Source of the DNA: Gemmatimonadota bacterium
GTDB taxonomy: Bacteria; JAAXHH01
Reading direction: 5' to 3'
DNA length: 64,000 nucleotides
Assembly (NCBI GenBank): GCA_009837395.1
Contig: VXTP01000015.1
Span: 124,001 to 188,000, forward strand
Positions 6,854 to 64,000 of this stretch are shown in pieces (position 1 is the first letter of the stretch; each line of letters starts with the position of its first letter). The position numbers and the translations under genes were made by a program. The notes beneath the pieces are model-generated. The model searched no databases, was not told where the DNA came from, and worked only from the letters and a program-made list of their open reading frames with translations.

Positions 6854-7386
6854 ACGCTTCGATACATGGGGACGCGCAGTCCCGGCCCGTACGGCGCAGT
6901 TTCGACACGGACGGTCCCGGTCAGACTGCGCGGGTCGGGAGACGGCTTGCGGCGTGGCTGGCGCCGGGGGACACCGTGCAGGTGTCCGGCGACCTGGGCG
7001 CGGGGAAAACCTGTTTTATCCAGGGGATCTGCGCGGGCCTCGACATCACGGAACCGGTCACGAGTCCCACCTTCACCCTCGTGAACGAATACTACGGTCA
7101 GTCTGGTCAGTCTGGTCAGCCTGGTCAGCCTGGTCAGCTTGGCCGGGTTCCCGTGGCCCACTTCGATCTCTACCGCCTGGACGACCCCGAGTCGGTGCTG
7201 GACCTCGGCTTGGAAGAATACCTGGACACGTGCGTCTGCCTGGTCGAATGGGGAGACAAGTTCCCGGGGATCATGCCGTCCGACGCGGTAACGGTGAATA
7301 TCGAAATCGGAGCGGGAACGCGGAGAACGCTGGAAATCGCGGGCGGTAGCGAACTGGTGTCCGATCTGGAGGCAGCGGTGCGGTGA
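6850..7386 (+). CDS. tsaE: tRNA threonylcarbamoyladenosine biosynthesis ATPase TsaE
   Basis: TsaE is the ATPase partner of TsaB/TsaD in making t6A at position 37 of ANN-decoding tRNAs. The Walker A loop GDLGAGKT is at residues 47-54, followed by the family block TSPTFTLVNEY and then HFDLYRLDDPES. Oddly, the loop between the last two blocks carries a Gln/Gly repeat (residues 83-97) made by five 9-bp DNA units. It starts with GTG inside the serS stop (GTGA). At 178 aa it is slightly longer than usual, explained by the repeat. Confidence 0.93.
   Translation: MNASIHGDAQSRPVRRSFDTDGPGQTARVGRRLAAWLAPGDTVQVSGDLGAGKTCFIQGICAGLDITEPVTSPTFTLVNEYYGQSGQSGQPGQPGQLGRVPVAHFDLYRLDDPESVLDLGLEEYLDTCVCLVEWGDKFPGIMPSDAVTVNIEIGAGTRRTLEIAGGSELVSDLEAAVR
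7096..7140. repeat. Five 9-bp units inside tsaE
   Basis: Five consecutive copies of GGTCAGYYT (7096, 7105, 7114, 7123, 7132). In the gene frame they encode GQS/GQP/GQL, a flexible loop between two conserved TsaE blocks. Confidence 0.95.
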
Positions 7387-32070: not shown

Positions 32071-32805
32071 ATGCTGCTCCAACTCGCCCTGGACACGCCG
32101 CACGCGGGTACGGTTCGTCGCCTGTTGGACGAGACCGCCGGCTACGTGGACATCATCGAGCTCGGAACGCCCCTGCTGATCCGTTACGGGGTCGACATCA
32201 TCGGCGAGATCAGGCTGGACCATCCCGGCAACAAGATCCTGGCGGACCTCAAGATCGCCGATGCCGGCGCCGTGGAAGCGGGCCTTGCCTTCGATGCGGG
32301 GGCGGACATTGTAACCGTGCTCGGTTCGGCCCATCCGGCCACGCTTCGGGAAGCGTGCGAGCGGGCGAAGCGGTCCGGCGGCAGGGTCATGGCCGACCTG
32401 ATCACCGCCCGTGAAGTGGACGAGGCGGTCTCCCTGGCCCGCAGGCTGGATCGGTCCGGCGTGGATTACATCTGTCTGCACACGGCTTTCGACGCCCGGA
32501 GACCGAGCGGACCCGTCGAACCGGGCGGACCGGGCGGGCCGGGCGGACCGGGCGAACCGGGCGGTCCGGGTAGACCGGGCGATTCAGCGCGAAACCTGGA
32601 AGGCATCGGCCAGGTCGGCGCAGCGGTCGAACGGGCGGGGCTGGCCGTCGCGGGCGGTCTGGATCCCACCTTGATCGAGCGGCTGATACCGCACGGCCCG
32701 GACATCGTGGTCGTCGGCGGTTACATCACCGGAAACCCCGATCCCGGTCGCGCGGTCCGTGCGATCCGGCAGGTCATGGAGAATGTGCATCGAGCCGATG
32801 GATAA
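32071..32805 (+). CDS. hxlA: 3-hexulose-6-phosphate synthase
   Basis: HPS joins formaldehyde to ribulose 5-phosphate, or runs in reverse to make pentoses. The 244-residue TIM barrel of the orotidine decarboxylase superfamily has the catalytic motif ADLKIADAG (Asp-x-Lys-x-x-Asp), GADIVTVLGSAH, and the phosphate-binding VAGGLDP and VVVGGYIT. Between barrel strands sits a collagen-like Gly-Pro-rich insert of about 23 residues from seven 9-bp DNA units. PHI (hxlB) follows with overlap, strongly supporting the assignment. Confidence 0.9.
   Translation: MLLQLALDTPHAGTVRRLLDETAGYVDIIELGTPLLIRYGVDIIGEIRLDHPGNKILADLKIADAGAVEAGLAFDAGADIVTVLGSAHPATLREACERAKRSGGRVMADLITAREVDEAVSLARRLDRSGVDYICLHTAFDARRPSGPVEPGGPGGPGGPGEPGGPGRPGDSARNLEGIGQVGAAVERAGLAVAGGLDPTLIERLIPHGPDIVVVGGYITGNPDPGRAVRAIRQVMENVHRADG
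32521..32583. repeat. Seven 9-bp units in hxlA
   Basis: Units of CCGGGCGGA type start at 32521, 32530, 32539, 32548, 32557, 32566 and 32575, encoding a PGG/PGE/PGR collagen-like loop. Confidence 0.95.
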
Positions 32806-49176: not shown

Positions 49177-49428
49177 ATGGACCTTCAAACTCTGATCGTC
49201 GCCATAGTCGTGGGGGTCGCGGCCGCGTCTGTCTTGCGCACCTTTACCCGGCAGTTCACCTCCCGGGACCAGAAGGGATGCGGAAGCTGCGCTCACGGCG
49301 GCTCGGTGCTGACCGGGCTGACCGGGCTGACCGGACAGACCGGGCAGTCCAGGCTGACCAGCGCATCGCGTGACGATGTACTGATCCAGGTAGAGCCGAT
49401 CCAGGTAGAGGAGTCCTTCCGGGAGTAG
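49177..49428 (+). CDS. FeoB-associated Cys-rich membrane protein
   Basis: This 83-residue protein has an N-terminal membrane helix (LIVAIVVGVAAASVL) followed by GCGSC, the pattern of the small FeoB-associated proteins. The rest is stretched by a Thr/Gly repeat (TGLTGLTGQTGQ) from 9-bp DNA units, so the original tail cannot be seen. Position directly after feoB (69 bp) supports the assignment. Confidence 0.8.
   Translation: MDLQTLIVAIVVGVAAASVLRTFTRQFTSRDQKGCGSCAHGGSVLTGLTGLTGQTGQSRLTSASRDDVLIQVEPIQVEESFRE
49311..49346. repeat. Four 9-bp units in the FeoB-associated gene
   Basis: GACCGGGCT-type units at 49311, 49320, 49329 and 49338, reading TGL/TGL/TGQ/TGQ in the gene frame. Confidence 0.9.
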
Positions 49429-50124: not shown

Positions 50125-50697
<573 letters not shown>

Positions 50698-50704
50698 TCC
50701 ATCC

Positions 50705-51217
50705 ATGGCCGCCACTATCACGGAAATCAAGCACAACCCGGGCAAGCCCGACCAGTCCTTCCAGTGCGGCCTGCTGCACCACGGCGGCAGCCGCCTGGTC
50801 ATCTCCTACCGGTCCGACCGGCCGTACAGCCAGGGCGACATCCGGATCCCTGCCGGCACGCTGACCCTGGCGTACTACGAAGAGGGGCTTCCGTACGTCC
50901 TCTGGAAGATGATCGGACCCGCCGGCCGCCTCGTCGGGCATTACGTGCACCTGTGCGACCGGGTGCGGATCGGACCGGACCGCGTGGAATACGACGACCA
51001 GTTGCTGGACCTGTGGTTCTTCCCGGACGGCGGCTGCCGCGTGCTGGACGAGGACGAGTTGAAGCAGGCCTGCGACGACGGGCTGGTCGACGGGCAGACG
51101 GCAGATCGCATCAGGACGTCCGCCGCGGAAGTCCAGCGCGGCATACACCGGATCATGGAGGATTTCGACGCATTGCTGGACCATATCGGCATCGAATCGC
51201 ATTCGGAATACGCTTGA
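50705..51217 (+). CDS. DUF402 domain-containing protein
   Basis: This 170-residue protein fits DUF402, a phosphatase-like family related to nucleoside diphosphatases. It has YYEEGLPYVLWKMIGPAG, HYVHLCDRVRIG, EYDDQLLDLWFFPDGG and DEDEL, an arrangement with conserved acidic residues. The ATG at 50705 is preferred to 50468, which lies inside the previous gene in another frame. Biochemical role not established. Confidence 0.85.
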   Translation: MAATITEIKHNPGKPDQSFQCGLLHHGGSRLVISYRSDRPYSQGDIRIPAGTLTLAYYEEGLPYVLWKMIGPAGRLVGHYVHLCDRVRIGPDRVEYDDQLLDLWFFPDGGCRVLDEDELKQACDDGLVDGQTADRIRTSAAEVQRGIHRIMEDFDALLDHIGIESHSEYA

Positions 51218-51334
51218 CACGGACCGGCTTCAGCCTTAGATTTTAGTTACGGAAAACGTGGCGAAAGCGTGGCCTGTCCGGACAATCGGAAGTGGCCGGC
51301 GAATCGCACCGTACACGCATCGACCTTCCAATAT

Positions 51335-52300
51335 ATGCCATCATTGAAAAACACGGTCACGCAACGCCTGTCCGCCAAGGGCATCGATCCCCTCGCGCTC
51401 TACGGCCAGTTTGACTCCAGGCTGCGCGCCATCGAAAGCGAATTCGACGCCAAAATCACCGCCCGGGGTGAAGAGGTCGTGATCACGGGCAAGGCGGAAG
51501 AGGTAAGGCAGATCACCCGTGTGCTGCGCGAAATGATCAAGTCCGTCCAGCAGGGCCGGGCGAAGGAAGTGGATGACATCATCCGGGCAACGCGAACCGG
51601 GACGAAAAGCGGCGAAGACCAGGGATCGGGTTACGGCGAGTCCATCGACGTGCTCTCCCGGCGGGAACGGATCCGGGCTCGGAGTCCCAATCAGCAGAAT
51701 TACGTGGACCAGGTCCGCAAGTGCGATATCGTCTTCTCCATCGGACCCGCCGGCACGGGGAAGACCTACCTGGCCGTCGCCATGGCCATCTCGGCCCTCC
51801 GCCACGGGGAAGTCGACCGGATCGTGCTGGCGCGGCCGGCCGTTGAAGCGGGAGAGAGTCTCGGCTTTCTGCCCGGCGATCCGCGGGAAAAAGTGGACCC
51901 GTACCTGAAGCCGCTCTACGACGCGCTGCACGACATGATCCCGAACCACAAGGCCGGGCGGCTCATCGAGGACGGAACCATTGAAATCATCGCCATGGCG
52001 TACATGCGCGGCCGAACGCTGAACAACGCCTTCGTCATACTCGACGAGGCCCAGAACACGACGACCGCGCAGATGAAGATGTTCCTGACCCGCCTGGGCG
52101 CGAACTCCAAGGCGATCATCACGGGGGACATCACCCAGATCGACTTGCCCGAGGAGAAGGTTTCCGGACTGGTGCACGTGCAGGATGTGCTCGCGGACAT
52201 CCGCGGGATCTCCTTCGTATACCTGACGGAGACGGACGTGGTCCGGCACCGGCTCGTCCAGGACATCATCAAGGCCTATGAACGCCATGAAAACCCGTAA
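51335..52300 (+). CDS. phoH: PhoH family ATPase
   Basis: This 321-residue cytoplasmic ATPase of the PhoH/PhoL type, linked to RNA metabolism, often neighbours ybeY, as here. It has an N-terminal KH-like part (ALYGQFDSRLRAIESEF), Walker A GPAGTGKT (about residues 137-144), the conserved ARPAVEAGESLGFLPGD, the Walker B FVILDEAQNTT and ITGDITQIDLP. The ATG at 51335 is preferred to the start at 51269. No clear ribosome site is visible. Confidence 0.93.
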   Translation: MPSLKNTVTQRLSAKGIDPLALYGQFDSRLRAIESEFDAKITARGEEVVITGKAEEVRQITRVLREMIKSVQQGRAKEVDDIIRATRTGTKSGEDQGSGYGESIDVLSRRERIRARSPNQQNYVDQVRKCDIVFSIGPAGTGKTYLAVAMAISALRHGEVDRIVLARPAVEAGESLGFLPGDPREKVDPYLKPLYDALHDMIPNHKAGRLIEDGTIEIIAMAYMRGRTLNNAFVILDEAQNTTTAQMKMFLTRLGANSKAIITGDITQIDLPEEKVSGLVHVQDVLADIRGISFVYLTETDVVRHRLVQDIIKAYERHENP

Positions 52301-52318
52301 TTCCACCCGCGACGACAC

Positions 52319-52870
52319 TTGAATATCGAGATCGAGACCGTCCTGCCCGCGCCGGACATCCCGCGCGAGGCGCTGTGGACCGCAGTCTGCCGGGTACTCC
52401 GGGGTGAAGGCCGGGATCGTGCGGCCGTGACCGTGGTGCTGGTCGATGACCCCTATATCCGGAAGTTGAATCACAAGTACCGCCATCTGGATCGCGCGAC
52501 GGACGTGCTGTCGTTCGGAATGGACGACGATCCCGGATCCGAAGGGGAAACCCTGGGCGACGTTTACGTATCCGTCGACCGGGCCCGGGACCAGGCCGCC
52601 CGTCATCACGTGTCCATGGACGACGAGTTGCACCGGCTTGTCGTCCATGGGTGCCTGCACCTGCTGGGATATGACCACCACACCGCTTCGCAGCGCAAAG
52701 TGATGCGGGAAAAGGAACAGGTCTATTCCGCGGATGCGGCAGCCCGGGCCGACCTGGCCGAACAGGCCGTACTGGCCGACTTGGCTGGACAGGCTGACCA
52801 GGCTGGCCAGGCTGACCAGGCTGGCCGCGGGATTCCGGAAGGTCAAGTGGGAGAGAAACGTTGTGGATGA
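52319..52870 (+). CDS. ybeY: Endoribonuclease YbeY (rRNA maturation)
   Basis: YbeY is a metal-dependent RNase that helps mature 16S rRNA. The metal site is intact: HGCLHLLGYDH with His110, His114 and His120. The N-terminal part has NHKYRHLDRATDVLSF. The last 30 residues are the Gln/Ala repeat AGQADQAGQADQA, made of 9-bp DNA units, and are not part of the normal family length. TTG start at 52319; the stop overlaps the next start by 8 bp. Confidence 0.95.
   Translation: MNIEIETVLPAPDIPREALWTAVCRVLRGEGRDRAAVTVVLVDDPYIRKLNHKYRHLDRATDVLSFGMDDDPGSEGETLGDVYVSVDRARDQAARHHVSMDDELHRLVVHGCLHLLGYDHHTASQRKVMREKEQVYSADAAARADLAEQAVLADLAGQADQAGQADQAGRGIPEGQVGEKRCG
52787..52826. repeat. 9-bp units in the ybeY tail
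   Basis: GGACAGGCT, GACCAGGCT, GGCCAGGCT and GACCAGGCT at 52787, 52796, 52805 and 52814; a looser version (GGCCGAACAGGCC) lies just upstream. Confidence 0.9.
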
Positions 52871-54185
52871 CGACATTCCCCTATTGGTCGAATGGCTTGT
52901 CCTCATTGGCTGTACCCTCTACGCCATGCTCCTGACCGGAGCGGAATCCGCGTTTTCCAGCCTGCCTAAAAACACGCTCCAGGAACTAAAGGCCGCGCAC
53001 GAAGGCGGACAGTCCAACCGCGTTACCCGGTGGCTGGACAACCAGGAACGCCTGTTCACCACGCTGCTGATCGGGAAGATCATCACCACGGCCGGCGTCG
53101 TGATCTCCGTGGTGGCGCTGTTCCTGACCCCGCCACTCACCAACTCGTTCGGCTCGATACTGACCCTGACCCTTTCCGGGCTGTTCGCCATCGGGCTCCT
53201 GCTGGTGCTCATCGAATGGCTGCCCAGACTGCTCGTGTTGCACTACTCCGACCAGACCGTGCGCGTCTCCGCCGTACTCGTGCTCATCAGCTACTGGCTG
53301 TTCTGGCCGCTGATCACACCGCTGCTGCTCCTTAACCGGCGCATGGCGCGCGAGGGGCTCTTCAGCAGCGGGCGCAATCCATACTGGCTCGACGACGAAC
53401 TGCACCGGGTGCTCGAACTGGAAGAAACCCGCGAACTGAATCCCGACGACAAGGAGATGATCAGCAGCATCATCGAAATGCACGACACCAGCGTGCGCGA
53501 GGTGATGGTCCCGAGAGTGGACATGGTGTGCGCCGAACGATCCAGGCCCATTCCGGAACTCCTGGAGCTCATCCGCGAGATGGGACACTCCCGGATTCCG
53601 ATCTACGGCGATTCCGTCGACGATATCGTGGGCGTCGTCTACGCCAAGGACCTGCTCCAGCTGAGCGAAGACCCGGATGGGGAGAAGGACCTGGACGGGT
53701 TGCTTCGCCCGCCCTACGTCGTGCCGGAGACCAAGAAAGCCGCCGAGCTGCTGAAAGAGTTCCAGCAGGAGAAGATCCACCTGGCCATCGTCGTGGATGA
53801 ACACGGGACCACCGCGGGCCTGGTGACCCTGGAGGACCTGCTCGAAGAGATCGTCGGCGAGATACAGGACGAGTACGACGACGAAGATCCCATGTACGAG
53901 GCGACGCCCGACGGCTCCTACATCGTCCACGCCCGGCTCACCATCGATACGCTGAACGACATCCTGGACCTCGATATCACGCCCGACGGGTTCGAAACCG
54001 TCGGCGGGCTGATCTTCAACGAGCTCGGCCGGGTGCCCGAACCCGGTGAGGAAGTGCCGTTCCGGAACGCCCGGATCGTGGTGCAAGAAGTCGAAGGGCA
54101 ACGCATCATCAAGGCGGAGGTGACCCGGCTGCATCCCCGGACCGAAGAGGACGGCGACGGCGAGATGGAGGACCGCGTTGCCTAG
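52863..54185 (+). CDS. CNNM/HlyC-CorC family protein with two CBS domains
   Basis: This 440-residue inner-membrane protein is of the CorC/HlyC kind (probably ion or magnesium homeostasis). It has an N-terminal CNNM (DUF21) domain with about four helices (LVEWLVLIGCTLYAMLLTG, VVISVVALFL). Two CBS domains follow (REVMVPRVDMVCAE and KIHLAIVVDEHGTTAGLVTLED), then a C-terminal CorC-HlyC domain (FETVGGLIFNELGRVPEPGE). The GTG at 52863 after GGGAGAG is preferred to the longer open frame from 52734, which would encode a repeat-derived leader. It overlaps ybeY. Confidence 0.88.
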   Translation: MDDDIPLLVEWLVLIGCTLYAMLLTGAESAFSSLPKNTLQELKAAHEGGQSNRVTRWLDNQERLFTTLLIGKIITTAGVVISVVALFLTPPLTNSFGSILTLTLSGLFAIGLLLVLIEWLPRLLVLHYSDQTVRVSAVLVLISYWLFWPLITPLLLLNRRMAREGLFSSGRNPYWLDDELHRVLELEETRELNPDDKEMISSIIEMHDTSVREVMVPRVDMVCAERSRPIPELLELIREMGHSRIPIYGDSVDDIVGVVYAKDLLQLSEDPDGEKDLDGLLRPPYVVPETKKAAELLKEFQQEKIHLAIVVDEHGTTAGLVTLEDLLEEIVGEIQDEYDDEDPMYEATPDGSYIVHARLTIDTLNDILDLDITPDGFETVGGLIFNELGRVPEPGEEVPFRNARIVVQEVEGQRIIKAEVTRLHPRTEEDGDGEMEDRVA

Positions 54186-55719
54186 CCCACCTGGCCCACC
54201 TGGTCCGCCTGGCCCGCCTGGCCCGGACCGTCCGGACCGCCCCAACATCATCCTCATCATGACGGACCAGCAGCGCATCGATACGATCCGCGGCTGGGAC
54301 CAGCCCCACATGATCACCCCGGCCCACGACCGGCTGGTCGCCGAAGGGGTTTCCTTCCGGCAGGCCTACTGTCCGGGCGCCACCTGCGTGGCCTCGCGGG
54401 CCGCCGTATTCACCGGCATGTACCCCCACAACACGGGCGTCTACAGTTTCCAGCCCTGGGGAGACCACCGCAACTGGGTGCAGGACCTGGCGGAAAGCGG
54501 CTACTGGTGCGCCAGCATCGGCAAGATGCATTTCATGCCCCGGGACATCCCCGGTGGGTTCCACGAGCGGGTCGTCGTCGAGAATCCGACCGGGATGAGC
54601 CTGGCCAGCGGCGGCGCGGACGACGACTGGGGCCGGTACATGACCTTCCACGGCGTGGAGCGGCCCAACGACCGCCACCTGACGGACCCCGACTGGTGGA
54701 CCAGACTGCAGGGCGTGCCGTGGCACGAGGAGGAGCGCTTCCACAGCGACGTCTTCATCGGAAACTCGGCGCTCAACTGGATACGAAGCCACCGCGGCGA
54801 GAAGCCCTTCTTCCTCGAAATCGGATTCACGGGTCCCCACGAACCCTGGGATCCGCTCCCCCGTCACCTGAGCCTGTACGACAATGTCGAGATACCCATG
54901 CCGGTAACCCGGGAGAACGAACTGGCGGGAAAGCCGCCCCAGCATGAAGCGCTGAAGAAGATGTTCTCCACGGCCGGCCACGAATCCGGCATCAACATGT
55001 ACCTGGCCAACGACGAACGCATCGACCGCATGCGCCGCCACTACTACGCCAAGGTGACCACGGTGGACGAGAAGATGGGGGAGATCCTGGGCGCCCTGGA
55101 GGAAAGGGGTTACCTGGACAACACCCTGGTCATCTTCTGCTCGGACCACGGCGAGAACCTGGGCGACCACGCCCTGGCCTACAAGTGGCTGATGTACGAC
55201 ACCATCACCCACATCCCCCTCATCATCCGCTACCCGGACCGCCGGCGCCGGGGCGACCACGTGAGCGACCTGGTCTCCCTCATGGACCTGGGTCCCACCA
55301 TCCTCGAGGCGGCCGGCGTGCCTATCCCCACCTACCTGGAAGGGCGCTCTCTCCTGCCCTACGCCGACCCGGACGCATCCGTCACGCCGCGTGACTATGT
55401 CTTCTGCGAGGACAACTATCAGATCATGATGCGCAGCCCGACCCACAAGATGGTTTACTACATCGGCCAGGAGGAGGGCGAGCTCTACGACCTGGTGGCC
55501 GATTCCGCAGAGCTTTGGAACCGGTGGGACGACGATGCGTATACCGGGATCAAGGCGAAGATGAAGGAAGACCTGCTGGAATGGCTGGCGGCCAGCAACT
55601 ACTGGCACGCCGGATACAAGCGGGACCGCTCCGCGCACTACAACGTGCGGTGGCCCACCGGGGACAACGTCAACCTGCAGGGGCCGGCCGCGGAAGACGC
55701 GAAGAAGCCGGGGTTGTAG
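54178..55719 (+). CDS. Sulfatase family protein
   Basis: This 513-residue sulfatase-fold hydrolase may cleave sulfate or phosphate esters. The N-terminal PNIILIMTDQQRIDTIRG carries the metal Asp. The formylglycine position is Cys70 in CVASR (C-x-A-S-R instead of C-x-P-S-R). VIFCSDHGENLGDH carries the second metal site. No signal peptide. The TTG start at 54178 overlaps the upstream stop, and its first 20 residues are a Pro-Gly repeat (9-bp DNA units); a later ATG at 54260 is too close to the metal motif, so the true start is uncertain. Confidence 0.85.
   Translation: MPSPPGPPGPPGPPGPDRPDRPNIILIMTDQQRIDTIRGWDQPHMITPAHDRLVAEGVSFRQAYCPGATCVASRAAVFTGMYPHNTGVYSFQPWGDHRNWVQDLAESGYWCASIGKMHFMPRDIPGGFHERVVVENPTGMSLASGGADDDWGRYMTFHGVERPNDRHLTDPDWWTRLQGVPWHEEERFHSDVFIGNSALNWIRSHRGEKPFFLEIGFTGPHEPWDPLPRHLSLYDNVEIPMPVTRENELAGKPPQHEALKKMFSTAGHESGINMYLANDERIDRMRRHYYAKVTTVDEKMGEILGALEERGYLDNTLVIFCSDHGENLGDHALAYKWLMYDTITHIPLIIRYPDRRRRGDHVSDLVSLMDLGPTILEAAGVPIPTYLEGRSLLPYADPDASVTPRDYVFCEDNYQIMMRSPTHKMVYYIGQEEGELYDLVADSAELWNRWDDDAYTGIKAKMKEDLLEWLAASNYWHAGYKRDRSAHYNVRWPTGDNVNLQGPAAEDAKKPGL
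54186..54239. repeat. Six 9-bp units at the sulfatase 5' end
   Basis: CCCACCTGG-type units from 54186 to 54239 encode PPGPPGPPG at the N-terminus and also overlap the stop of the CNNM gene. Confidence 0.9.
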
Positions 55720-55881: not shown

Positions 55882-56910
55882 ATGCATTCTTTATTGACGG
55901 TATTTGCCGTTACGACCGTGTTTCCGGAGTTATTGACGGGTTGTGCCGAGGAAAGAACGCTCGTTTTCGACGACATTTTCCGGGAAGAATCCCGGATTGT
56001 CCTGGATTCGCGCGACGAGTTTCTCATCGGGCCACTCCCCCGTATCGGCACGGTAACCGCGGGCGGAGACATCGTCATACTGGATATCACTCCCCGTACG
56101 GGGATCTACGACAGAACCGGGGCGGGCAAGGGCGTGATCGGCGGACCGGGCGATGGCCCGGGAGAGTACCGTAATCCGGTCTCGATAACCTCTCACAACG
56201 GGGATCTGTACCTGTACGACAGCATGTTGTCCCGTATATCCCGCTATGACAGGACATTCCGGTTCGTCAGTTCCATGCTGGTATCGGAGCTTCTGGATGA
56301 AATCGACTTCTCCGAAGAAGGCAGGCTGTACGGTTACTGGTCTACCCATCCCTCTGAACTGGTGTGCGAACTGGATGATGCAGGCCAGCTTTTGCGAAGA
56401 TTCGCGCCTCAATCTGAAAACCACAATGAAGCAGCCAGATCAGCGGGCGGGGGCGTGGTGATATCGGGGGGATTCCTCTACACCATATCGCCTTACGAGT
56501 ACACCCTTTCGAAGTATTCGCTGGATGGCGTCCTTGTCGACTCGGTTCAGGGTCGGTCGGCGTATTATGTCCCACCGCCGGAACAATTCGACGTACGTAT
56601 CCTGAACGACATTCCCCGTCTTGACGAGTACCATGACCAGTGGAGCCATATCCTTCAGATCCTGCGGATCGGTGACCGGGCCCTGGCCGTGGTGTTTGCG
56701 GCACCCGGTTATTCGCGGGCGTTCCTTGCCCTCTATGATTCAGACCTCAACCCAATCGCGGAAGATATCCAGTTGCCGGATTACACGAGGGCGCCCGGTG
56801 CGTTGTTCTCCCGCGGAGATCGGCTCTACATGCTGCTGGAACCGTCGGACGACCAGGCGAATCCATCGGTGGCCGTCTACACCCTGAGACGGTCTCTCGT
56901 CGATTTATAG
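55882..56910 (+). CDS. 6-bladed beta-propeller lipoprotein
   Basis: This 342-residue protein has a lipoprotein signal peptide (lipobox LLTGC, lipid Cys at residue 21). It then shows the NHL/6-bladed propeller style with GKGVIGGPGDGPGEYRNP. It is a distant relative of the five propellers at 58-63.5 kb (shared GPGE motif and blade rhythm) but clearly more diverged. ATG at 55882 follows GGGTGA; the upstream in-frame start at 55819 would bury the signal peptide. No enzymatic motif. Confidence 0.8.
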   Translation: MHSLLTVFAVTTVFPELLTGCAEERTLVFDDIFREESRIVLDSRDEFLIGPLPRIGTVTAGGDIVILDITPRTGIYDRTGAGKGVIGGPGDGPGEYRNPVSITSHNGDLYLYDSMLSRISRYDRTFRFVSSMLVSELLDEIDFSEEGRLYGYWSTHPSELVCELDDAGQLLRRFAPQSENHNEAARSAGGGVVISGGFLYTISPYEYTLSKYSLDGVLVDSVQGRSAYYVPPPEQFDVRILNDIPRLDEYHDQWSHILQILRIGDRALAVVFAAPGYSRAFLALYDSDLNPIAEDIQLPDYTRAPGALFSRGDRLYMLLEPSDDQANPSVAVYTLRRSLVDL

Positions 56911-56955: not shown

Positions 56956-56984
56956 GCTTGACAGAAATATTTGGAAACGGTAAC
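56956..56984 (+). promoter_or_regulatory. Possible promoter upstream of the efflux adaptor
   Basis: A perfect TTGACA (56956-56961) is followed by only weak -10 candidates (TAACGA, 56979-56984, spacing 17). It lies just before the triple repeat at 57009. Confidence 0.35.
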
Positions 56985-57008
56985 GATTTGATGTTTCCCG
57001 ATTTTTAA

Positions 57009-57059
57009 TGGTCCGATCCTCCATAATTGGTCCGATCCTCTTTCAATGGTCCGATCCTC
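57009..57059. repeat. Three direct repeats with 19-bp period
   Basis: TGGTCCGATCCTC occurs perfectly at 57009-57021, 57028-57040 and 57047-57059. The array ends 14 bp before the start codon of the efflux adaptor. Confidence 0.95.
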
Positions 57060-57073
57060 AAGGACGAATACCT

Positions 57074-58306
57074 GTGAAAATACGAGTAACAACCTTCGCT
57101 GTCTTGGTTGCGGTCGTCGTGACCTTCGCAGCCTGCCTGAGTGCGTGCACGGCAGATCCCGGGGAGGAAGCTGCCGAGGGGGTTGCCGAAGGGACTGCCG
57201 AGGTAAATCCATCTGAGAACACCGTGCAGCCCTTTCCGGTCGAGGCCGTGGTGGTGAGTCCCCGCACACTGACCCGTTCGATCGTCGCATCGGGCCGCCT
57301 CATGGCCATCCGGCGTACCGAGTTAAGTACCGGCGTCTCGGGCAGGGCAGCAGAAGTACGGGTCCGCGAGGGCGATCGCGTCTCTACGGGCGACCTGCTG
57401 CTGCGCCTGGACGATGCGCCGTTCAAACTGAGTGTCGAGAAAGCGGAAGCGGATCTGCTGGACAAGAGGATCGACTATGCGGTTTTCATCAGTGATACCA
57501 CCGCCGTCCTGAACTCGGACTCAACCTGGGTGATACGTGAACGCGATGCACTCGAAAAGGCTCGTCATGCATTTGAGCTTGGCGAAATCGATGACGGAAA
57601 ACTGAAGTCGGCGCAAAGGAACCTGGATGCCGCGGAATTACTCAGTGGTTCGCGGTTGGATCTCTTAGCGCTGAACTCGGGACTCATCCTGGCCGAAGTT
57701 GAACATGCCCGCGTGCGGTGGGAACTCGAGCAGACCTCCGTTCATGCTCCGTTTTCAGGCGTCATCGCAAAGCGGATGGTAGAGGAAGGACAGCAGGTGA
57801 GCTCGGGGGAGACCTGTTTCGAACTGATCGACCTCTCCAGGGTACGCGTCAGGGCCGCCGTGCTGGAAAGTGACCTGGGCGCCGTCGGCGTCGGTCACGG
57901 GATACGCATCAGCGTCACCACGTGGCCCGGCGAGTTCTTCGAAGGCAGGATATCCCGCATACACCCCACCGTCGACGAAGAGAGCGGGACGGCCATCGTC
58001 GAAGCGGAACTCGCCAACCCGGGAGGACGGCTCAAGCCCGGCATGTTCGCCGAGGTGCTTATCGAGGGTACGTCATACGAAAACCGGATCGCCGTGCCGG
58101 ACGAGGCCATCGTCAGCCGTGACGAACGCACACTGGTGTTTGTCATTCAAGGTGGAAGGGCGCAGTGGTCCTACGTCACTCTGGGGCAGGAAGGCGACGC
58201 CTGGAGGGAGGTGACCTCCGGGGTCAGCGAGGGCGACACGGTGGCCGTCACCGGCAACATCACCCTGGCCCACGACGTCCCGGTCCGGGTGCGGTTGAGG
58301 GAATAA
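57074..58306 (+). CDS. RND efflux periplasmic adaptor (membrane fusion protein)
   Basis: This 410-residue adaptor links an inner-membrane RND pump to an outer-membrane channel. It has an N-terminal lipoprotein signal (LSAC, Cys about 26), a first lipoyl-like half (GRAAEVRVREGDRVSTGDLL), a helical hairpin, the second half (TSVHAPFSGVIAKRMVEEGQQVSSGE) and the C-terminal barrel/MP region. GTG start at 57074 after AAGGAC. The matching permease begins only at 63521, after five propeller genes. Confidence 0.93.
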   Translation: MKIRVTTFAVLVAVVVTFAACLSACTADPGEEAAEGVAEGTAEVNPSENTVQPFPVEAVVVSPRTLTRSIVASGRLMAIRRTELSTGVSGRAAEVRVREGDRVSTGDLLLRLDDAPFKLSVEKAEADLLDKRIDYAVFISDTTAVLNSDSTWVIRERDALEKARHAFELGEIDDGKLKSAQRNLDAAELLSGSRLDLLALNSGLILAEVEHARVRWELEQTSVHAPFSGVIAKRMVEEGQQVSSGETCFELIDLSRVRVRAAVLESDLGAVGVGHGIRISVTTWPGEFFEGRISRIHPTVDEESGTAIVEAELANPGGRLKPGMFAEVLIEGTSYENRIAVPDEAIVSRDERTLVFVIQGGRAQWSYVTLGQEGDAWREVTSGVSEGDTVAVTGNITLAHDVPVRVRLRE

Positions 58307-58352
58307 GGCCTCCTGCCAGTATGGTGTATTCCAGAAGAAAGGCGATATCGTT

Positions 58353-59342
58353 TTGAAAAGGATTATCACCGTCGTTTCATCTATTGTATTAACTGCTGCT
58401 TTGGGTTCTGCGAATGCCCAACCATTCTCGATCGAGAAAGTCAGGGCGATCCCGCTTCAACTAGGAGATGAGTTTGTCGGATTAATCTCAGATCTGATTC
58501 AGGACACGGACGGACGGTACTATCTGACGGACTGGCAGCAGCATTCCGTTTGGATTTGTGACTCGGAAGGCAAACTGATCCGACGTGTCGGGCGGGAGGG
58601 AGCCGGTCCCGGCGAGTTGCAGCATCCCACCGGAACCGCTGTATTTGAAGATAAGGTTATCGTGCTGGATACCGGAAACGGCCGGGTAATGATATTCAAG
58701 AAGGATGGTACACATTCAAACGACTTCAGATTAGACTTCCTCCCAATGACATCAGGGATTCTGGTGAGCAAGGATGGCCGGATCGCGGTCAATTCTCTCT
58801 GGGAGCCAACACTCTTCACGGTTTACGATATGGATGGCGGCATCATTGGCAGCCGAGGTGAAAGAGTGCCGGACCAGGCGGTTGGTTATACCATTGGTGA
58901 TCAGCATTTCAGCCAGACACCGGACGGCCATATTCTGTACTCCACGGTCAAGGAATATCCCGTTTACAGAATGCAGTGGGACGGAACTGTTATAGCAACT
59001 TACGAAGCCGATTCCCCGGGTTACGGCAAGCTTACCTATCCGCCCGGCGCCATGTTTATAAACCACAAGGAGATCATGAAAATCTGGACGCCCATACTGC
59101 GAGCCCTCGTTGTCTCTGATCACGTACTCACGCAGCGAAAGAAGGAAAACGTCGAGAGCGACGGAACTATTGACTACTTCGGCGATCTCTTCACTATGGC
59201 CGGCGAACCTGTTCAACTCGCGATCGAACTTCCCATGCAATTCTATGCCGCTGATGGCAATCTCCTCTACGGCATCGACACGACGCCCGTGGACGAGGGG
59301 GAGGACAACCCGCATATCGTGGTTTATCGGTTGGTTGAATAG
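58353..59342 (+). CDS. Secreted 6-bladed beta-propeller, paralogue 1
   Basis: This 329-residue protein has a Sec signal peptide (ending SANAQ) and a 6-bladed propeller core. The conserved family core reads DGRYYLTDWQQHSVWICDSEGK followed by GREGAGPGEL; later blocks are NSLWEPTLFTVYD and TTPVDEGEDNPHIVVYRL. It starts with TTG at 58353 after AAAGG. Paralogue 2 is its nearest relative by shared blocks. Local base composition is visibly less GC-rich than in the housekeeping part. Binding partner unknown. Confidence 0.85.
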   Translation: MKRIITVVSSIVLTAALGSANAQPFSIEKVRAIPLQLGDEFVGLISDLIQDTDGRYYLTDWQQHSVWICDSEGKLIRRVGREGAGPGELQHPTGTAVFEDKVIVLDTGNGRVMIFKKDGTHSNDFRLDFLPMTSGILVSKDGRIAVNSLWEPTLFTVYDMDGGIIGSRGERVPDQAVGYTIGDQHFSQTPDGHILYSTVKEYPVYRMQWDGTVIATYEADSPGYGKLTYPPGAMFINHKEIMKIWTPILRALVVSDHVLTQRKKENVESDGTIDYFGDLFTMAGEPVQLAIELPMQFYAADGNLLYGIDTTPVDEGEDNPHIVVYRLVE

Positions 59343-59436
59343 TAGTTAGGTGAATTCGTGCTGTTAAAACCCCTTCTCCGTATGGTAAGTAAACCGTTTT
59401 AATCATTCGCTCCGAACCGAATAGGGAGATCAATGT

Positions 59437-60429
59437 ATGAAGATGATCACTGCTGTCCTTGTAGCCGGGTTGGCTTTGATACCCGTTTCAATCGTTTCTG
59501 CACAGACTTTCTCCATCGAGAAAACCGGCGATATTGCCCTGAATCTCGGTGATGAGATTACCGGACAAATCGGAGACCTGATTCAGGACACCGACGGGCG
59601 GTTTTACCTGACGGATTTTCAGCAGAATACGGTCTGGATGTGTGACTCGAAAGGCAGACTGATCAGGCGAATCGGCCGGGAAGGTTCCGGTCCCGGAGAG
59701 CTAAACTTTCCGAGTGGAACAACTGTATACGAAGACAAAGTCATTGTGCTCGACAAAGGTAACAGTCGAGTAGTGGTTTTCAAGATGGACGGGACGTATG
59801 TAAACGACTTCCGAGTAAACTTTTTTATGGCAACAGGGATTCTGGCGAGTAAAGACGGCCGTATAGCGGTTAATTCTCTCTGGGAGCCAACGCTTTTTAC
59901 CGTTTTCGATATGGATGGAAACATTGTAGGGAGTAAAGGTGAAAGAGTGCCGGATCAGTCGTTTTTTACAATGATGGGGGATCAGCATTTCAACCAGACA
60001 TCGGCCGGTCACATTCTGTACTCCACTGTTAAAGAATACCCCGTACTCAGAATGACATGGGACGGTACTGTACTTGCGGAATATGAGGCCGATTCCCCTG
60101 GATACGGGAAATTCGAATTCCCGTCCGGCGTTCAGTTTCCACATGTCAACGACATCTTGAAAACCTGGACCCCGATTCTGCGTCCGCTGGCCATTGGTGA
60201 TCACGTTCTGGTACAACGTAAAAAAGTAGATGTTGAGAATGGTATAAAATACTACGGCGACCTCTTCACCATGGACGGCACGCCGGTACAGTTGGCCATG
60301 GAACTACCCTTTCAGTTTTACGCGGTGGATGGCGATCTCCTCTACGGTATCGACACGACGCCGGTGAATGAAGGAGCGGACAACCCGCACATCGTGGTGT
60401 TCCAGCTGAGGGAAAGTGCAGGTCAGTAA
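59437..60429 (+). CDS. Secreted 6-bladed beta-propeller, paralogue 2
   Basis: 330 residues, signal peptide ending VSAQ. The core is the same as paralogue 1 but the marker reads DFQQNTVWMCDSKG, then REGSGPGELNFPSG. NSLWEPTLFTVFDMDG and TTPVNEGADNPHIVVFQL are nearly the same as in paralogue 1. AGGGAGA precedes the ATG at 59437. Its stop TAA overlaps the next ATG by one base (TAATG). The 94-bp gap from paralogue 1 holds no gene. Confidence 0.85.
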   Translation: MKMITAVLVAGLALIPVSIVSAQTFSIEKTGDIALNLGDEITGQIGDLIQDTDGRFYLTDFQQNTVWMCDSKGRLIRRIGREGSGPGELNFPSGTTVYEDKVIVLDKGNSRVVVFKMDGTYVNDFRVNFFMATGILASKDGRIAVNSLWEPTLFTVFDMDGNIVGSKGERVPDQSFFTMMGDQHFNQTSAGHILYSTVKEYPVLRMTWDGTVLAEYEADSPGYGKFEFPSGVQFPHVNDILKTWTPILRPLAIGDHVLVQRKKVDVENGIKYYGDLFTMDGTPVQLAMELPFQFYAVDGDLLYGIDTTPVNEGADNPHIVVFQLRESAGQ

Positions 60430-61424
60430 TGATGTCATTCCTCCGAGCTGTTTTTCTCATCCTGATTACAATTACAGTTACATCGGTCCATGCACAATCC
60501 TATGTGATTGAAAAAACCCAGGTTATCCCGCTCGAGCTGGGCGATGAAATCGTCGGTGAAATCGCCGATCTCACCCGGGACGCCGAGGGGAACTTCTACC
60601 TGCCCGACTGGCAGCAGCATATGATCTGGGTAGTGGACTCCCAGGGCAGGTTGATCCGGAAAATCGGGCAGGCGGGAAGGGGACCGGGCGAACTGACCAA
60701 TCCCCGCAGTGTGGCGTTGCACGATGGTAAGGTTTTCGTGCTTGATAACGACAACGACAGAATCTCCGCTTTTTCAATTTCTGGACAGCATCTTTCCAGC
60801 CATCGAATCGATGTGTACCTATCGACCGGCATGCTGATAAACGACGATGGCCACATCGCCGTTTCTTCTGTGCTGGCTCCGTCATTTTTCACGGTATACG
60901 ACACCGATGGCGCGAAGCTCTACGATGGCGGCAGCCGTGAGGTCGAGGCCAGGCCCGTCGGGGTCATCGGCGGATCCTATCAGCTGTTCCAGCACATATC
61001 CAGCACACCTAATGGAGACGTGCTTTTTTCGCCGGTGAAACGTTACGAAGTGTCGAGACTTCACTGGGATGGCACGGTGCTGGCAACCTATTCGGCGGAA
61101 CCTCCCGGATACACTCCTTTCTTCGTCACTCCAACGGGAAGTGGATTCAAGCTCGACAACACGTGGTCAAGGGTTGATCGGCCTATGGCTGTCGGCGATC
61201 ATGTTTTGATCCAAAGATGGAAAGTCCTGGAAGACGGCGAACAGAGATTTAAAGGCGATCTCTTCTTGGAGGACGGTAGCGTCGTCCAACTTGGCATTGA
61301 GTTGCCCTTCACTTTCATCTGCGCCGATGGTCGAACCCTCTACGGCATCGATACAGCACCTGTTGAAGAAGGTGAACCCAATCCGCATATCACTGTCTAC
61401 CGATTGAGCGGCGGGCCAGAATAA
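60429..61424 (+). CDS. Secreted 6-bladed beta-propeller, paralogue 3
   Basis: 331 residues with signal peptide ending VHAQ. It reads NFYLPDWQQHMIWVVDSQGR and GQAGRGPGELTNP; the ending is TAPVEEGEPNPHITVYRL. It is intermediate between paralogues 1/2 (NPHI ending) and 4/5 (PDWQQH and PVEEGE). The ATG at 60429 overlaps the preceding stop by one base; a second ATG follows immediately at 60432. Confidence 0.85.
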   Translation: MMSFLRAVFLILITITVTSVHAQSYVIEKTQVIPLELGDEIVGEIADLTRDAEGNFYLPDWQQHMIWVVDSQGRLIRKIGQAGRGPGELTNPRSVALHDGKVFVLDNDNDRISAFSISGQHLSSHRIDVYLSTGMLINDDGHIAVSSVLAPSFFTVYDTDGAKLYDGGSREVEARPVGVIGGSYQLFQHISSTPNGDVLFSPVKRYEVSRLHWDGTVLATYSAEPPGYTPFFVTPTGSGFKLDNTWSRVDRPMAVGDHVLIQRWKVLEDGEQRFKGDLFLEDGSVVQLGIELPFTFICADGRTLYGIDTAPVEEGEPNPHITVYRLSGGPE

Positions 61425-61465
61425 CCGTGATTGGTCCGTGCGGTCGAATCATCTGGAGGAGCTTG

Positions 61466-62455
61466 ATGAGATACGTATTACTATTCCTGGCAACCATGCT
61501 TCTTCAACACTGGACCACCCCCGCTTCCGCGCAGGACTACAGCCTCGAAAAAGTACGGGAGATCCCGATCGATCTGGGGGATGAAATCGTTGGTCAAATC
61601 TCCGATATCGCCCGGGACGGAGAAGGTAATTTTTACCTGCCCGACTGGCAGCAGCATACGGTCTGGGTAACGGATCCGGGCGGGAAGTTGATCCGGCGCA
61701 TCAGCCAGGAAGGATCCGGTCCGGGGGAGATGTCGAAACCTCAAAATGTTACGGTATTCGAGGACCGCATCGTGGTATTCGACAAGGAAAACTTCCGTGT
61801 GGCAACGTTCAACCTGGACGGAACCCACCTTGCTTCGTTCCGAATCGACAGACCCGGACCGGATAACATCATTTGTGGAAGTGAAGCGCGCTGCGCCGTG
61901 AGTTCCCTCATGGGCGAATCGCTGCTTACAGTGTACGACTCGAACGGCAACAAGAGTCACGATATGGGCAACCGCCCCTGGCCGCCGGACCCTCCCATTC
62001 CGGTCCGGATGGGCGGCTCGTTCCTGCACATGTCGCTCACCCCTGAAGGCCGCATTCTATACTCATCCGTCAAGACCTACCAGGTGTACGATATGGAATG
62101 GGATGGCAGTATCGTCGCGACGTATGCAGCCGAACCGCCAGGATACTATCCCATGGTGATTACGAGTCGGGAAACTGCGTCGGAAGAGTTGAATAGATCG
62201 ACCCGTATGTTTCGACCCCTGATTGTCGGTGATTTCGTGCTCGTACAGCGGGACAGAAACGGTCCGGACAATACCCGCGTCCGGCATATCGACCTGTTCG
62301 GAAGAGACGGAACGCTCATCCAGTTGGATATCGAGTCACCCCTTCATTTTGACCACGCCGAAGGCGATGATCTGTACGCCATCGACACGTCCCCGGTGGA
62401 AGAAGGGGAACTCAACCCCAGTATCGTGGTCTATCGACTGAGCGGCGGGCCATAA
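61466..62455 (+). CDS. Secreted 6-bladed beta-propeller, paralogue 4
   Basis: 329 residues; signal peptide ending ASAQ, then FYLPDWQQHTVWVTDPGGK, QEGSGPGEM, GESLLTVYDSNGN and SPVEEGELNPSIVVYRL. The blocks RPWPPDP and ETASEELNRSTRMFRPLIVG are shared almost exactly with paralogue 5. GGAGG sits just before the ATG at 61466; an upstream in-frame start at 61427 would add residues before the signal peptide. Confidence 0.85.
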   Translation: MRYVLLFLATMLLQHWTTPASAQDYSLEKVREIPIDLGDEIVGQISDIARDGEGNFYLPDWQQHTVWVTDPGGKLIRRISQEGSGPGEMSKPQNVTVFEDRIVVFDKENFRVATFNLDGTHLASFRIDRPGPDNIICGSEARCAVSSLMGESLLTVYDSNGNKSHDMGNRPWPPDPPIPVRMGGSFLHMSLTPEGRILYSSVKTYQVYDMEWDGSIVATYAAEPPGYYPMVITSRETASEELNRSTRMFRPLIVGDFVLVQRDRNGPDNTRVRHIDLFGRDGTLIQLDIESPLHFDHAEGDDLYAIDTSPVEEGELNPSIVVYRLSGGP

Positions 62456-62512
62456 ACTGGCATCCTATTTCTCGTGACTCAATACGTAACCCGTCGCGCC
62501 GGGGAGCACCGA

Positions 62513-63502
62513 ATGAGATTCGCTGTGATTATGCTGGCCATCGGTCTGATTTCGACGTGGACCGCACAGGTTTCCGCCCAGCACTACACCATCGAAAAAG
62601 TGCGGGAGATCCCGCTCGATCTTGGGGATGAAATCGTAGGTCTTATCGCCGATCTCGCCCGTGATGTAGAAGGTCATTTCTACATGCCGGACTGGCAGCA
62701 GCATACGGTCTGGGTAACGGATCCGAGAGGGAAGTTGATCCGGCGTTTCGGACAGGAAGGATCCGGGCCGGGGGAATTGTCGCGGCCGCGCAGTATCTCC
62801 GTTCTGGAAGACAGAATTGTCGTTCTCGATAGAGACAACGCCTGGATTTCGGTCTTTACTAAAGATGGAGAAAGTATGGCCACCTTTCGTATTGACCATT
62901 CACGACCGTCCGGTATGGCTGTTGGTCATGACGGACAGATCGTCGTGAGTGCCCTGGTAGGTGAATCGTTATTTACCGTATACGATTCGGAAGGGGTAAA
63001 AGTGAACGACGGCGGCAGTCGTCCCTGGCCGCCGCCTCCGGGAACGATGATCATGTTCTCCGGTCCAGTTCAGCATCTCTCGCTCACTCCAGATGGCAAT
63101 ATCCTTTATTGTCCTGTCAAACGGTACGAAATCCAGGAAATGAGATGGGATGGTAGTATCGTCGCGACGTACACAGCCGAACCGACAGGATACTCTCCCC
63201 TGGTGATTACGAGTATAGAATCTGCATCGGAAGAGTTAAACAAAGCGACCCGTATTTTACGACCCCTGATTGTCGGTAATTTCGTTGTCGTGCAGAGAGC
63301 AAGGAATCGAGGCGAGCCCGAGGAGGGTTCAATCTTCCATCTCGACCTGTTCGAACGGGACGGCACCCTTGTCCAGATGGATATCGAATCTCCATTGAGT
63401 TTCATCTACGCCGACGGCGATGATCTTTACGCCATTGACACGTCCCCCGTGGAAGAAGGGGAACTCAACCCCAGTATCGTGGTCTACCAGTTGAGAAACT
63501 GA
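62513..63502 (+). CDS. Secreted 6-bladed beta-propeller, paralogue 5
   Basis: 329 residues; signal peptide ending VSAQ, then FYMPDWQQHTVWVTDPRGK, QEGSGPGELSRP, GESLFTVYDSEG and SPVEEGELNPSIVVYQL. It shares long identical DNA stretches with paralogue 4 (for example 36 bp at 62690 and 38 bp at 63449). GGGGAG precedes the ATG at 62513. The permease gene begins 18 bp after its stop, so it is probably part of the same transcript. Confidence 0.85.
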   Translation: MRFAVIMLAIGLISTWTAQVSAQHYTIEKVREIPLDLGDEIVGLIADLARDVEGHFYMPDWQQHTVWVTDPRGKLIRRFGQEGSGPGELSRPRSISVLEDRIVVLDRDNAWISVFTKDGESMATFRIDHSRPSGMAVGHDGQIVVSALVGESLFTVYDSEGVKVNDGGSRPWPPPPGTMIMFSGPVQHLSLTPDGNILYCPVKRYEIQEMRWDGSIVATYTAEPTGYSPLVITSIESASEELNKATRILRPLIVGNFVVVQRARNRGEPEEGSIFHLDLFERDGTLVQMDIESPLSFIYADGDDLYAIDTSPVEEGELNPSIVVYQLRN

Positions 63503-63520
63503 GCCGGATCGGGACCGATC

Positions 63521-64000
63521 ATGAACCTACCCCAGATCGCCGTCCGGCGGCCCGTCGCCACGTGCTGCCTGACGTGCGCCGCCGTCCTCATCGGGTTCAT
63601 CGCACTAACCCGCCTGCCGGTCAACCTGCTGCCGCCCCTCGAGATACCGGCCATCACGGTATGGACGACGTGGGCCGATACGCCACCGGAGATCGTGGCC
63701 CGCGAGATTACCGAACCGATCGAGTCCGCACTGCGGAATCTGCCCGGTGCGATGCAGGTCCGTTCCATATCCCGCGAGGGCGAATCGCTCGTAACCGTCG
63801 AGCTCGACTGGGGCGCAGACCTTCAATCCACGCTGCTCGCCGCCCGGGAAAAGCTCGACACGCAGCGATTCCTCCTTCCGGCCGATAGCGATCGACCGGT
63901 CCTGCTGGATACGGACCCTGACCGCGCGCCCATGATGGGACTGGTGCTCGAGTCCGGAACGCGGAACGACGACGGTGCCACTTCCTCCCTGCAACGACTG
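63521..64000 (+). CDS. RND efflux transporter permease, N-terminal part
   Basis: The window ends inside this gene (160 codons present). It has the RND start PQIAVRRPVATCC, the first membrane helix, and the conserved LPVNLLPPLEIPAITVWT and PPEIVAREITEPIESALRNLPG of the AcrB/MdtB type. It pairs with the adaptor at 57074-58306 to form a tripartite efflux pump. It is probably translated with the propeller genes ahead of it. An outer-membrane channel gene is not seen. Confidence 0.93.
   Translation, partial: MNLPQIAVRRPVATCCLTCAAVLIGFIALTRLPVNLLPPLEIPAITVWTTWADTPPEIVAREITEPIESALRNLPGAMQVRSISREGESLVTVELDWGADLQSTLLAAREKLDTQRFLLPADSDRPVLLDTDPDRAPMMGLVLESGTRNDDGATSSLQRL

Follow-up and report, generated by a model that had tools for sequence, protein, structure and literature searches.

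Secreted propellers encoded within a two-permease RND exporter operon of Latescibacterota: candidate periplasmic partners of the pump

Analysis of a 64,000-nt stretch of contig VXTP01000015.1 (positions 124,001 to 188,000 of the forward strand; Gemmatimonadota bacterium, assembly GCA_009837395.1), hereafter the window, revealed five tandem genes for secreted six-bladed propellers between the adaptor and the permease gene of a resistance-nodulation-division (RND) efflux pump. A second RND permease, overlooked by the first-pass annotation of this DNA, directly follows the first. The common view of RND pumps is that of machines with three parts. Here, the gene content and its recurrence in other genomes lead us to read the propellers, with moderate confidence, as proteins that handle substrate in the periplasm for an RND exporter with two permeases.

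Operon layout and the propeller family

The genes lie head to tail in the order lipo-propeller, adaptor, propellers P1-P5, permease 1 and permease 2, and the gaps from the adaptor through to permease 1 are 46, 94, -1, 41, 57 and 18 bp:

55882-56910, + strand: lipo-propeller, a lipidated PF17170 six-bladed propeller (lipobox LTGC; PF17170 2.2e-11)
56958-56987, + strand: promoter-like element TTGACA-18-AACGAT in the gap between lipo-propeller and adaptor, read by eye
57007-57059, + strand: 19-bp direct repeat with TGGTCCGATCCTC core, three copies, in the adaptor leader
57074-58306, + strand: RND periplasmic adaptor, lipobox LSAC (TIGR01730 2.1e-60; HlyD_D23 4.3e-32)
58353-59342, + strand: propeller P1, group A, signal peptide, TTG start (PF17170 6.5e-13; tree)
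59437-60429, + strand: propeller P2, group A (PF17170 2.5e-11; tree)
60429-61424, + strand: propeller P3, group C, its start overlapping the P2 stop by 1 base (PF17170 2.5e-12; AlphaFold2)
61466-62455, + strand: propeller P4, group D (PF17170 1.6e-7; tree)
62513-63502, + strand: propeller P5, group D (PF17170 9.5e-7; tree)
63521-64000, + strand, running past the window to C42:190637: RND permease 1, 1038 amino acids (ACR_tran 2.1e-196 over 3-1020)
C42:190660-193710, outside the window, directly after permease 1: RND permease 2 (ACR_tran 2.9e-152)

Pfam and NCBIfam searches agree with the first-pass annotation on gene coordinates, + strand and identities (RND adaptor, propellers, RND permease), including the lipidated relative upstream of the adaptor, which exceeds the PF17170 gathering score, and the 18 bp between P5 and permease 1. 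Its propeller lengths of 329-331 residues also stand, given starts at 61466 for P4 and 62513 for P5. The full permease 1 protein was read from the contig; the window holds its N-terminus, which matches ACR_tran as well. With an adaptor (TIGR01730) and a full-length RND permease (ACR_tran), the locus has two of the three components of a tripartite RND efflux system. No outer-membrane factor was seen in C42:176001-196000; the rest of the genome was not searched and may encode one. Escherichia coli MdtABC likewise combines an adaptor and two RND permeases in one operon, but there mdtA and mdtB are adjacent, and the permeases described here fall outside the MdtB/MdtC clade, with NCBIfam scores far below the MdtB/MdtC cut-offs that would mark an MdtABC-type system.

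An open frame of 1393 had suggested a fusion of P5 to permease 1, which was dropped because of an in-frame TGA at 63500-63502. Both genes (62513-64000) share a reading frame, with one TGA and six sense codons between them. The same layout is indicated in the related genomes G007 and G010, and a readthrough fusion is conceivable but unsupported.

All six propellers score above the PF17170 gathering cut-off of 22.9 bits (43.9, 49.0, 43.8, 47.1, 31.3 and 28.7). Identity to P1 is 44-67% for P2-P5 and 23% for the lipo-propeller. The AlphaFold2 model of P3, built on 11 sequences, is a confident propeller (pLDDT 81.7, pTM 0.81). Among solved structures, it matches NHL six-bladed domains best (to 1e-12). 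Its best bacterial fold match is Bacteroides BF0058 (PDB 4raa, TMq 0.67), and further matches include peptidyl-hydroxyglycine amidating lyase, virginiamycin B lyase and BtuG. The lipo-propeller model, from three sequences, reached a pLDDT of only 31 and gave no usable fold. The propellers are thus like PF17170 (DUF5128) and BF0058 in their above-gathering scores and predicted six-bladed NHL fold, and differ from them in forming a (T/P)DWQQHxVW subfamily that is lineage-restricted, soluble and encoded within an RND operon. The DWQQHxVW core that the first-pass annotation had ascribed to all five is exact in P1, P4 and P5, while P2 reads DFQQNTVW and P3 DWQQHMIW, giving a corrected motif of (T/P)D(W/F)QQ(H/N)x(V/I)W. 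The second proposed mark of the five, GPGE(L/M), is instead a general PF17170/NHL blade signature that also occurs in the lipo-propeller and in distant propellers.

Propellers beside the same permease lineage in distant genomes

The association of propellers and pump is wider than the first-pass annotation knew, as distantly related genomes also have propeller genes next to pumps of this RND lineage. An RND-like permease was found in 7 of 80 neighbourhoods of distant PF17170-like propellers and genuinely in none of 40 arbitrary windows, a difference that is borderline on its own. Two weak control-window matches look like SecD/SecF or similar and were not counted as genuine; some RND fragments are labelled MFP in the reference set, which is unlikely to have changed the RND window counts materially. 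Five of the seven neighbourhoods are good, since G231 and G436 were discounted, the former for a protein that lacks a signal peptide and the latter for an MMPL-like pump.

Gene orders vary around a common theme. The propeller is followed after 3 bp by adaptor, permease and permease in G180, and by TolC, adaptor, permease and permease in G338. G194 carries three propeller-like genes (two Pfam-confirmed) and then a permease, where the contig is cut; G021 has a permease fragment and then a propeller; and G331 reads MauE, propeller, MauE, two propellers, O-antigen-ligase-like protein, adaptor, permease. G444, which was found from the pump side, has a propeller, an adaptor and two permeases, with a 133-amino-acid gene between adaptor and permease. 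Two further genomes from the same taxonomic order as G331, G454 and G457, encode secreted 341-366-amino-acid open reading frames (ORFs) and MauE before the adaptor, and were not counted because Pfam does not call these ORFs propellers.

A tree built from 33 RND permeases groups permease 1 of these loci in one clade (support 100/99) and permease 2 in another (100/100). Neither clade takes in the seven other RND permeases of the genome studied here, E. coli AcrB, MdtB and MdtC, or three plasmid RNDs. As propellers were the basis on which several of the tree loci were chosen, and as the outgroup sample is limited, the clades can fairly be called enriched for propellers, not exclusive to them. Because propellers join pumps of the same two permease clades in distant lineages, their link to the pump is not chance. 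On the reading favoured here, at about even odds, the module is the form taken in Latescibacterota by a more widespread RND exporter with two permeases, which often has six-bladed propellers beside it. MauE/DoxX membrane proteins, at times joined by thioredoxin-like ones, also recur next to this RND lineage in genomes far from the genus (L172:4664-16001, L069:12524-17633, L266:1136-11507, L267:804-3448), which suggests a thiol-redox step.

The sole match to permease 2 in a plasmid collection at E<=1e-60, Phocaeicola massiliensis OY726023.1, has two permeases that fall in the same two clades. Upstream of them, eight NVEALA-type peptides are interleaved with nine propeller-length lipoproteins, several of which were confirmed as PF17170 or PF15869, and this array is followed by signal peptidase I, an O-antigen-ligase-like protein, adaptor, permease 1, TolC and permease 2. 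Judged by its genes, this stretch (L279:283-18961, L273:1659-12087) looks like an undescribed peptide export locus. The BT0662-BT0669 region of Bacteroides thetaiotaomicron, in which BT0662 is annotated as O-antigen ligase, BT0664 as six-bladed propeller, BT0667 as signal peptidase I and BT0669 as RND adaptor (PMC10434189), looks like a locus of the same kind. In the literature searched, we found no mention of PF17170 or NVEALA.

Both permease clades, upstream propeller genes and a lipoprotein adaptor are common to the Bacteroidales and Latescibacterota loci. Lipoprotein propellers placed upstream, their alternation with NVEALA peptides, the signal peptidase, the O-antigen-ligase-like protein and TolC are peculiar to the Bacteroidales system, whereas in Latescibacterota the propellers lie between adaptor and permease and no peptide, TolC or peptidase was found at the locus. 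The N(V/I)EALA motif was absent from ORFs of >=30 amino acids in seven stretches from the genus (the window, L022, L064 and L066-L069), a search that divergent peptides would escape. By analogy, the alternation of propellers with NVEALA peptides in Bacteroidales suggests peptides or peptide-like molecules as the ancestral cargo class.

Distribution in the genus and evolution of the array

Sixteen genomes of the phylum were compared, 12 of them (12 species) from the genus, whose named genomes are metagenome-assembled and whose remaining ones are drafts in several contigs. Six of the 12 species have the pump (adaptor plus permease 1), namely G000, G007, G010, G009, G004 and, in divergent form, G002. 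Only the first five of these have tandem propellers, which in each case lie between adaptor and permease. The search for an adaptor-propeller(n)-permease arrangement advised by the first-pass annotation returned 3-5 propellers per genome in these five species, counts that are minima in G007 and G004, where the arrays are split over contig ends. All 21 members of the signal-peptide family lie between adaptor and permease, in agreement with its suggested expansion inside the pump operon, and neither scattered propellers nor a propeller-free pump, named beforehand as signs against a link, was encountered in the related genomes.

The lipo-propeller occurs in 6/6 pump genomes versus 0/10 other genomes of the phylum, lies directly upstream of the adaptor in five of the six, and is read as the ancestral partner of the pump. 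In G002, the order is lipo-propeller, weakly ResA-like protein, lipo-propeller, MauE, small secreted protein and then the pump, which occupies a different locus, has its adaptor and permease genes side by side and lacks a tandem array. This pump is too divergent to be a vertical orthologue (permease 67% versus corC 95%).

A scan of 84,980 species detected the tandem subfamily in two Latescibacterota genomes only, the same as G009 and G004. A profile search of 384 genomes gave 21 tandem-subfamily matches below 1e-112 and all others above 1e-17, and a permease 1 search at E<=1e-160 had no match outside the genus. A PF17170 search of 387 genomes at E<=1e-15 was uninformative, as members score low and only a few candidates were scored. 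The placement of propellers between adaptor and permease appears restricted to this genus.

The sulfatase and TPR genes that flank the module are adjacent in the pump-less G001, G006, G008 and G011, and an AAA/DUF4143 ATPase stands beside the sulfatase in G003, G005 (where the stretch read ends past the ATPase) and G002. As the flanks neighbour each other, or nearly so, in pump-less species, the module is a discrete cassette. Its carriers fall into two clades that are separate in the species tree, and both ancestral presence with repeated loss and transfer into the same slot are possible. ATPases of the AAA_14/DUF4143 type lie in or beside the sulfatase-TPR slot at L096:12725-13918, L097:284-1408, L100:3441-4634 and L064:4136-5308, and the slot may be an insertion hot spot.

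In a tree of the 21 tandem propellers, four groups were resolved, A (P1, P2), B (missing from G000), C (P3) and D (P4, P5). Every species with a tandem array keeps the order A-(A)-B-C-D-(D), indicating that duplication and loss act on a fixed order. The propellers are all constrained by purifying selection, as the ratio of nonsynonymous to synonymous divergence (dN/dS) was 0.03-0.37 in all comparisons. Synonymous divergence (dS) is uneven: between G000 and G007 it is 0.13 for the permease, 0.07 for P2, 0.34 for P4 and 0.67 for P5, and between G009 and G004 it is 0.26 for the permease and 0.82-0.83 for the propellers. This unevenness between propellers and pump genes points to allele exchange within the array.

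The operon is likely co-transcribed. The promoter-like element aligns in five species (-10 TATGAT in G009, CATAAT in G004) and is weak, a consensus scan not having listed it; promoter-like and terminator-like sites of the region do not exceed chance expectation. The 19-bp repeat, a possible operator, has three copies in G000, two each in G007 and G010, and one each in G009 and G004, and its tandem form was found nowhere else in the genus at <=3 mismatches. Elsewhere in the window, G+C-rich 9-bp tandem repeats occur at 7096-7142, 32501-32581, 49308-49359, 50637-50692, 52783-52826 and 54180-54225; those at 50637-54225 are at gene ends or junctions and encode odd tails such as RTERTERT or PGPPGPPG.

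Candidate role of the propellers and rival explanations

As substrate-handling partners, the propellers would be exported by Sec; the lipid-anchored one would stay on a membrane, and the soluble ones would bind or handle substrate in the periplasm and pass cargo to the adaptor or permease. Groups A-D would then differ in specificity and, with their duplications and fast mosaic divergence, could widen or tune the cargo range. Each half of such a role has a precedent. CusF passes copper on to its RND pump (PMC6235853), so that CusCFBA/SilF share with our locus a periplasmic accessory protein encoded with the pump; CusF is a small copper chaperone, unlike these 330-residue propellers. BtuG, a surface propeller lipoprotein that acts with BtuB and captures B12 for a transporter (PMC6143338, PMC10404256), combines propeller fold and ligand capture, but serves TonB-dependent import at the outer membrane instead of RND export. 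Neither parallels the propellers in both role and fold.

Several observations weigh against a substrate-handling role. Besides the borderline neighbourhood count, the census of RND clade members that lack propellers is incomplete, as the upstream region of G450 is uncovered and the upstream ORFs of G454 and G457 are unrecognised by PF17170. The divergent G002 pump presumably works without a tandem array. Conserved metal ligands of the CusF type (Cys/Met/His) were not found in the tandem family: H189 is its sole invariant His, and no Cys or Met is invariant, making an obvious metal ligand unlikely.

An unlikely alternative, yet the strongest of those considered, is that the propellers are periplasmic enzymes, akin to NHL-fold lyases or lactonases, and act on the exported compound to modify or detoxify it. 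Many propellers are enzymes, two lyases are among the fold matches of P3, and paralogue diversity would suit substrate diversity. However, the folds that match best belong to non-enzymatic NHL domains and BF0058, Pfam and NCBIfam searches returned no enzyme family match, and invariance among the classic metal or acid-base residues is limited to H189 and some D, E and K. Somewhat less probable is a structural or assembly role, in which the propellers would dock on the stack of adaptor and permease and might, for instance, take the place of an outer-membrane channel or form a bridge to one. Their gene position between adaptor and permease and the lack of a visible outer-membrane factor in the locus would fit such a role, but copy number varies from 3 to 5, G002 has a pump without tandem propellers, apart from an N-terminal linker the adaptor shows no propeller-specific domain that its G002 counterpart lacks, the propellers evolve faster than the pump, and TolC and propellers are present together in G338 and Phocaeicola.

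NHL proteins are listed among the eukaryotic-like proteins of sponge-associated Latescibacterota (PMC12993501), so the propellers might instead be directed at a host or neighbouring cell and have nothing but the operon in common with the pump. We consider this improbable, as every tandem copy lies in this operon and the same RND lineage has propellers in distant genomes. Folded proteins are not known to be exported by RND pumps. Mere duplication of the array into a permissive slot, with no functional link, is already disfavoured and the least probable of all: some propeller/RND adjacency is expected because PF17170-like propellers are abundant (a match in 139/384 sampled genomes), but the order is conserved in two separated clades under purifying selection, and both the constant presence of the lipo-propeller in pump genomes and the clade-specific linkage across lineages argue against it.

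Returning to substrate handling as the favoured role, we tentatively propose, with less confidence than the role itself, an undescribed export system that spans distant lineages and consists of a dedicated two-permease RND pump and cognate propellers, joined in Bacteroidales by NVEALA peptides and a dedicated signal peptidase, the propellers of Latescibacterota having lost their lipid anchor to become soluble and shifted to a place between adaptor and permease. If true, an operon in which as many as six propellers assist the pump, together with the tie between one RND clade and propellers across lineages, would give the orphan families PF17170 and NVEALA a testable role and broaden the range of molecules exported by RND pumps. 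The Bacteroidales version lives in tractable gut bacteria and would be open to genetics.

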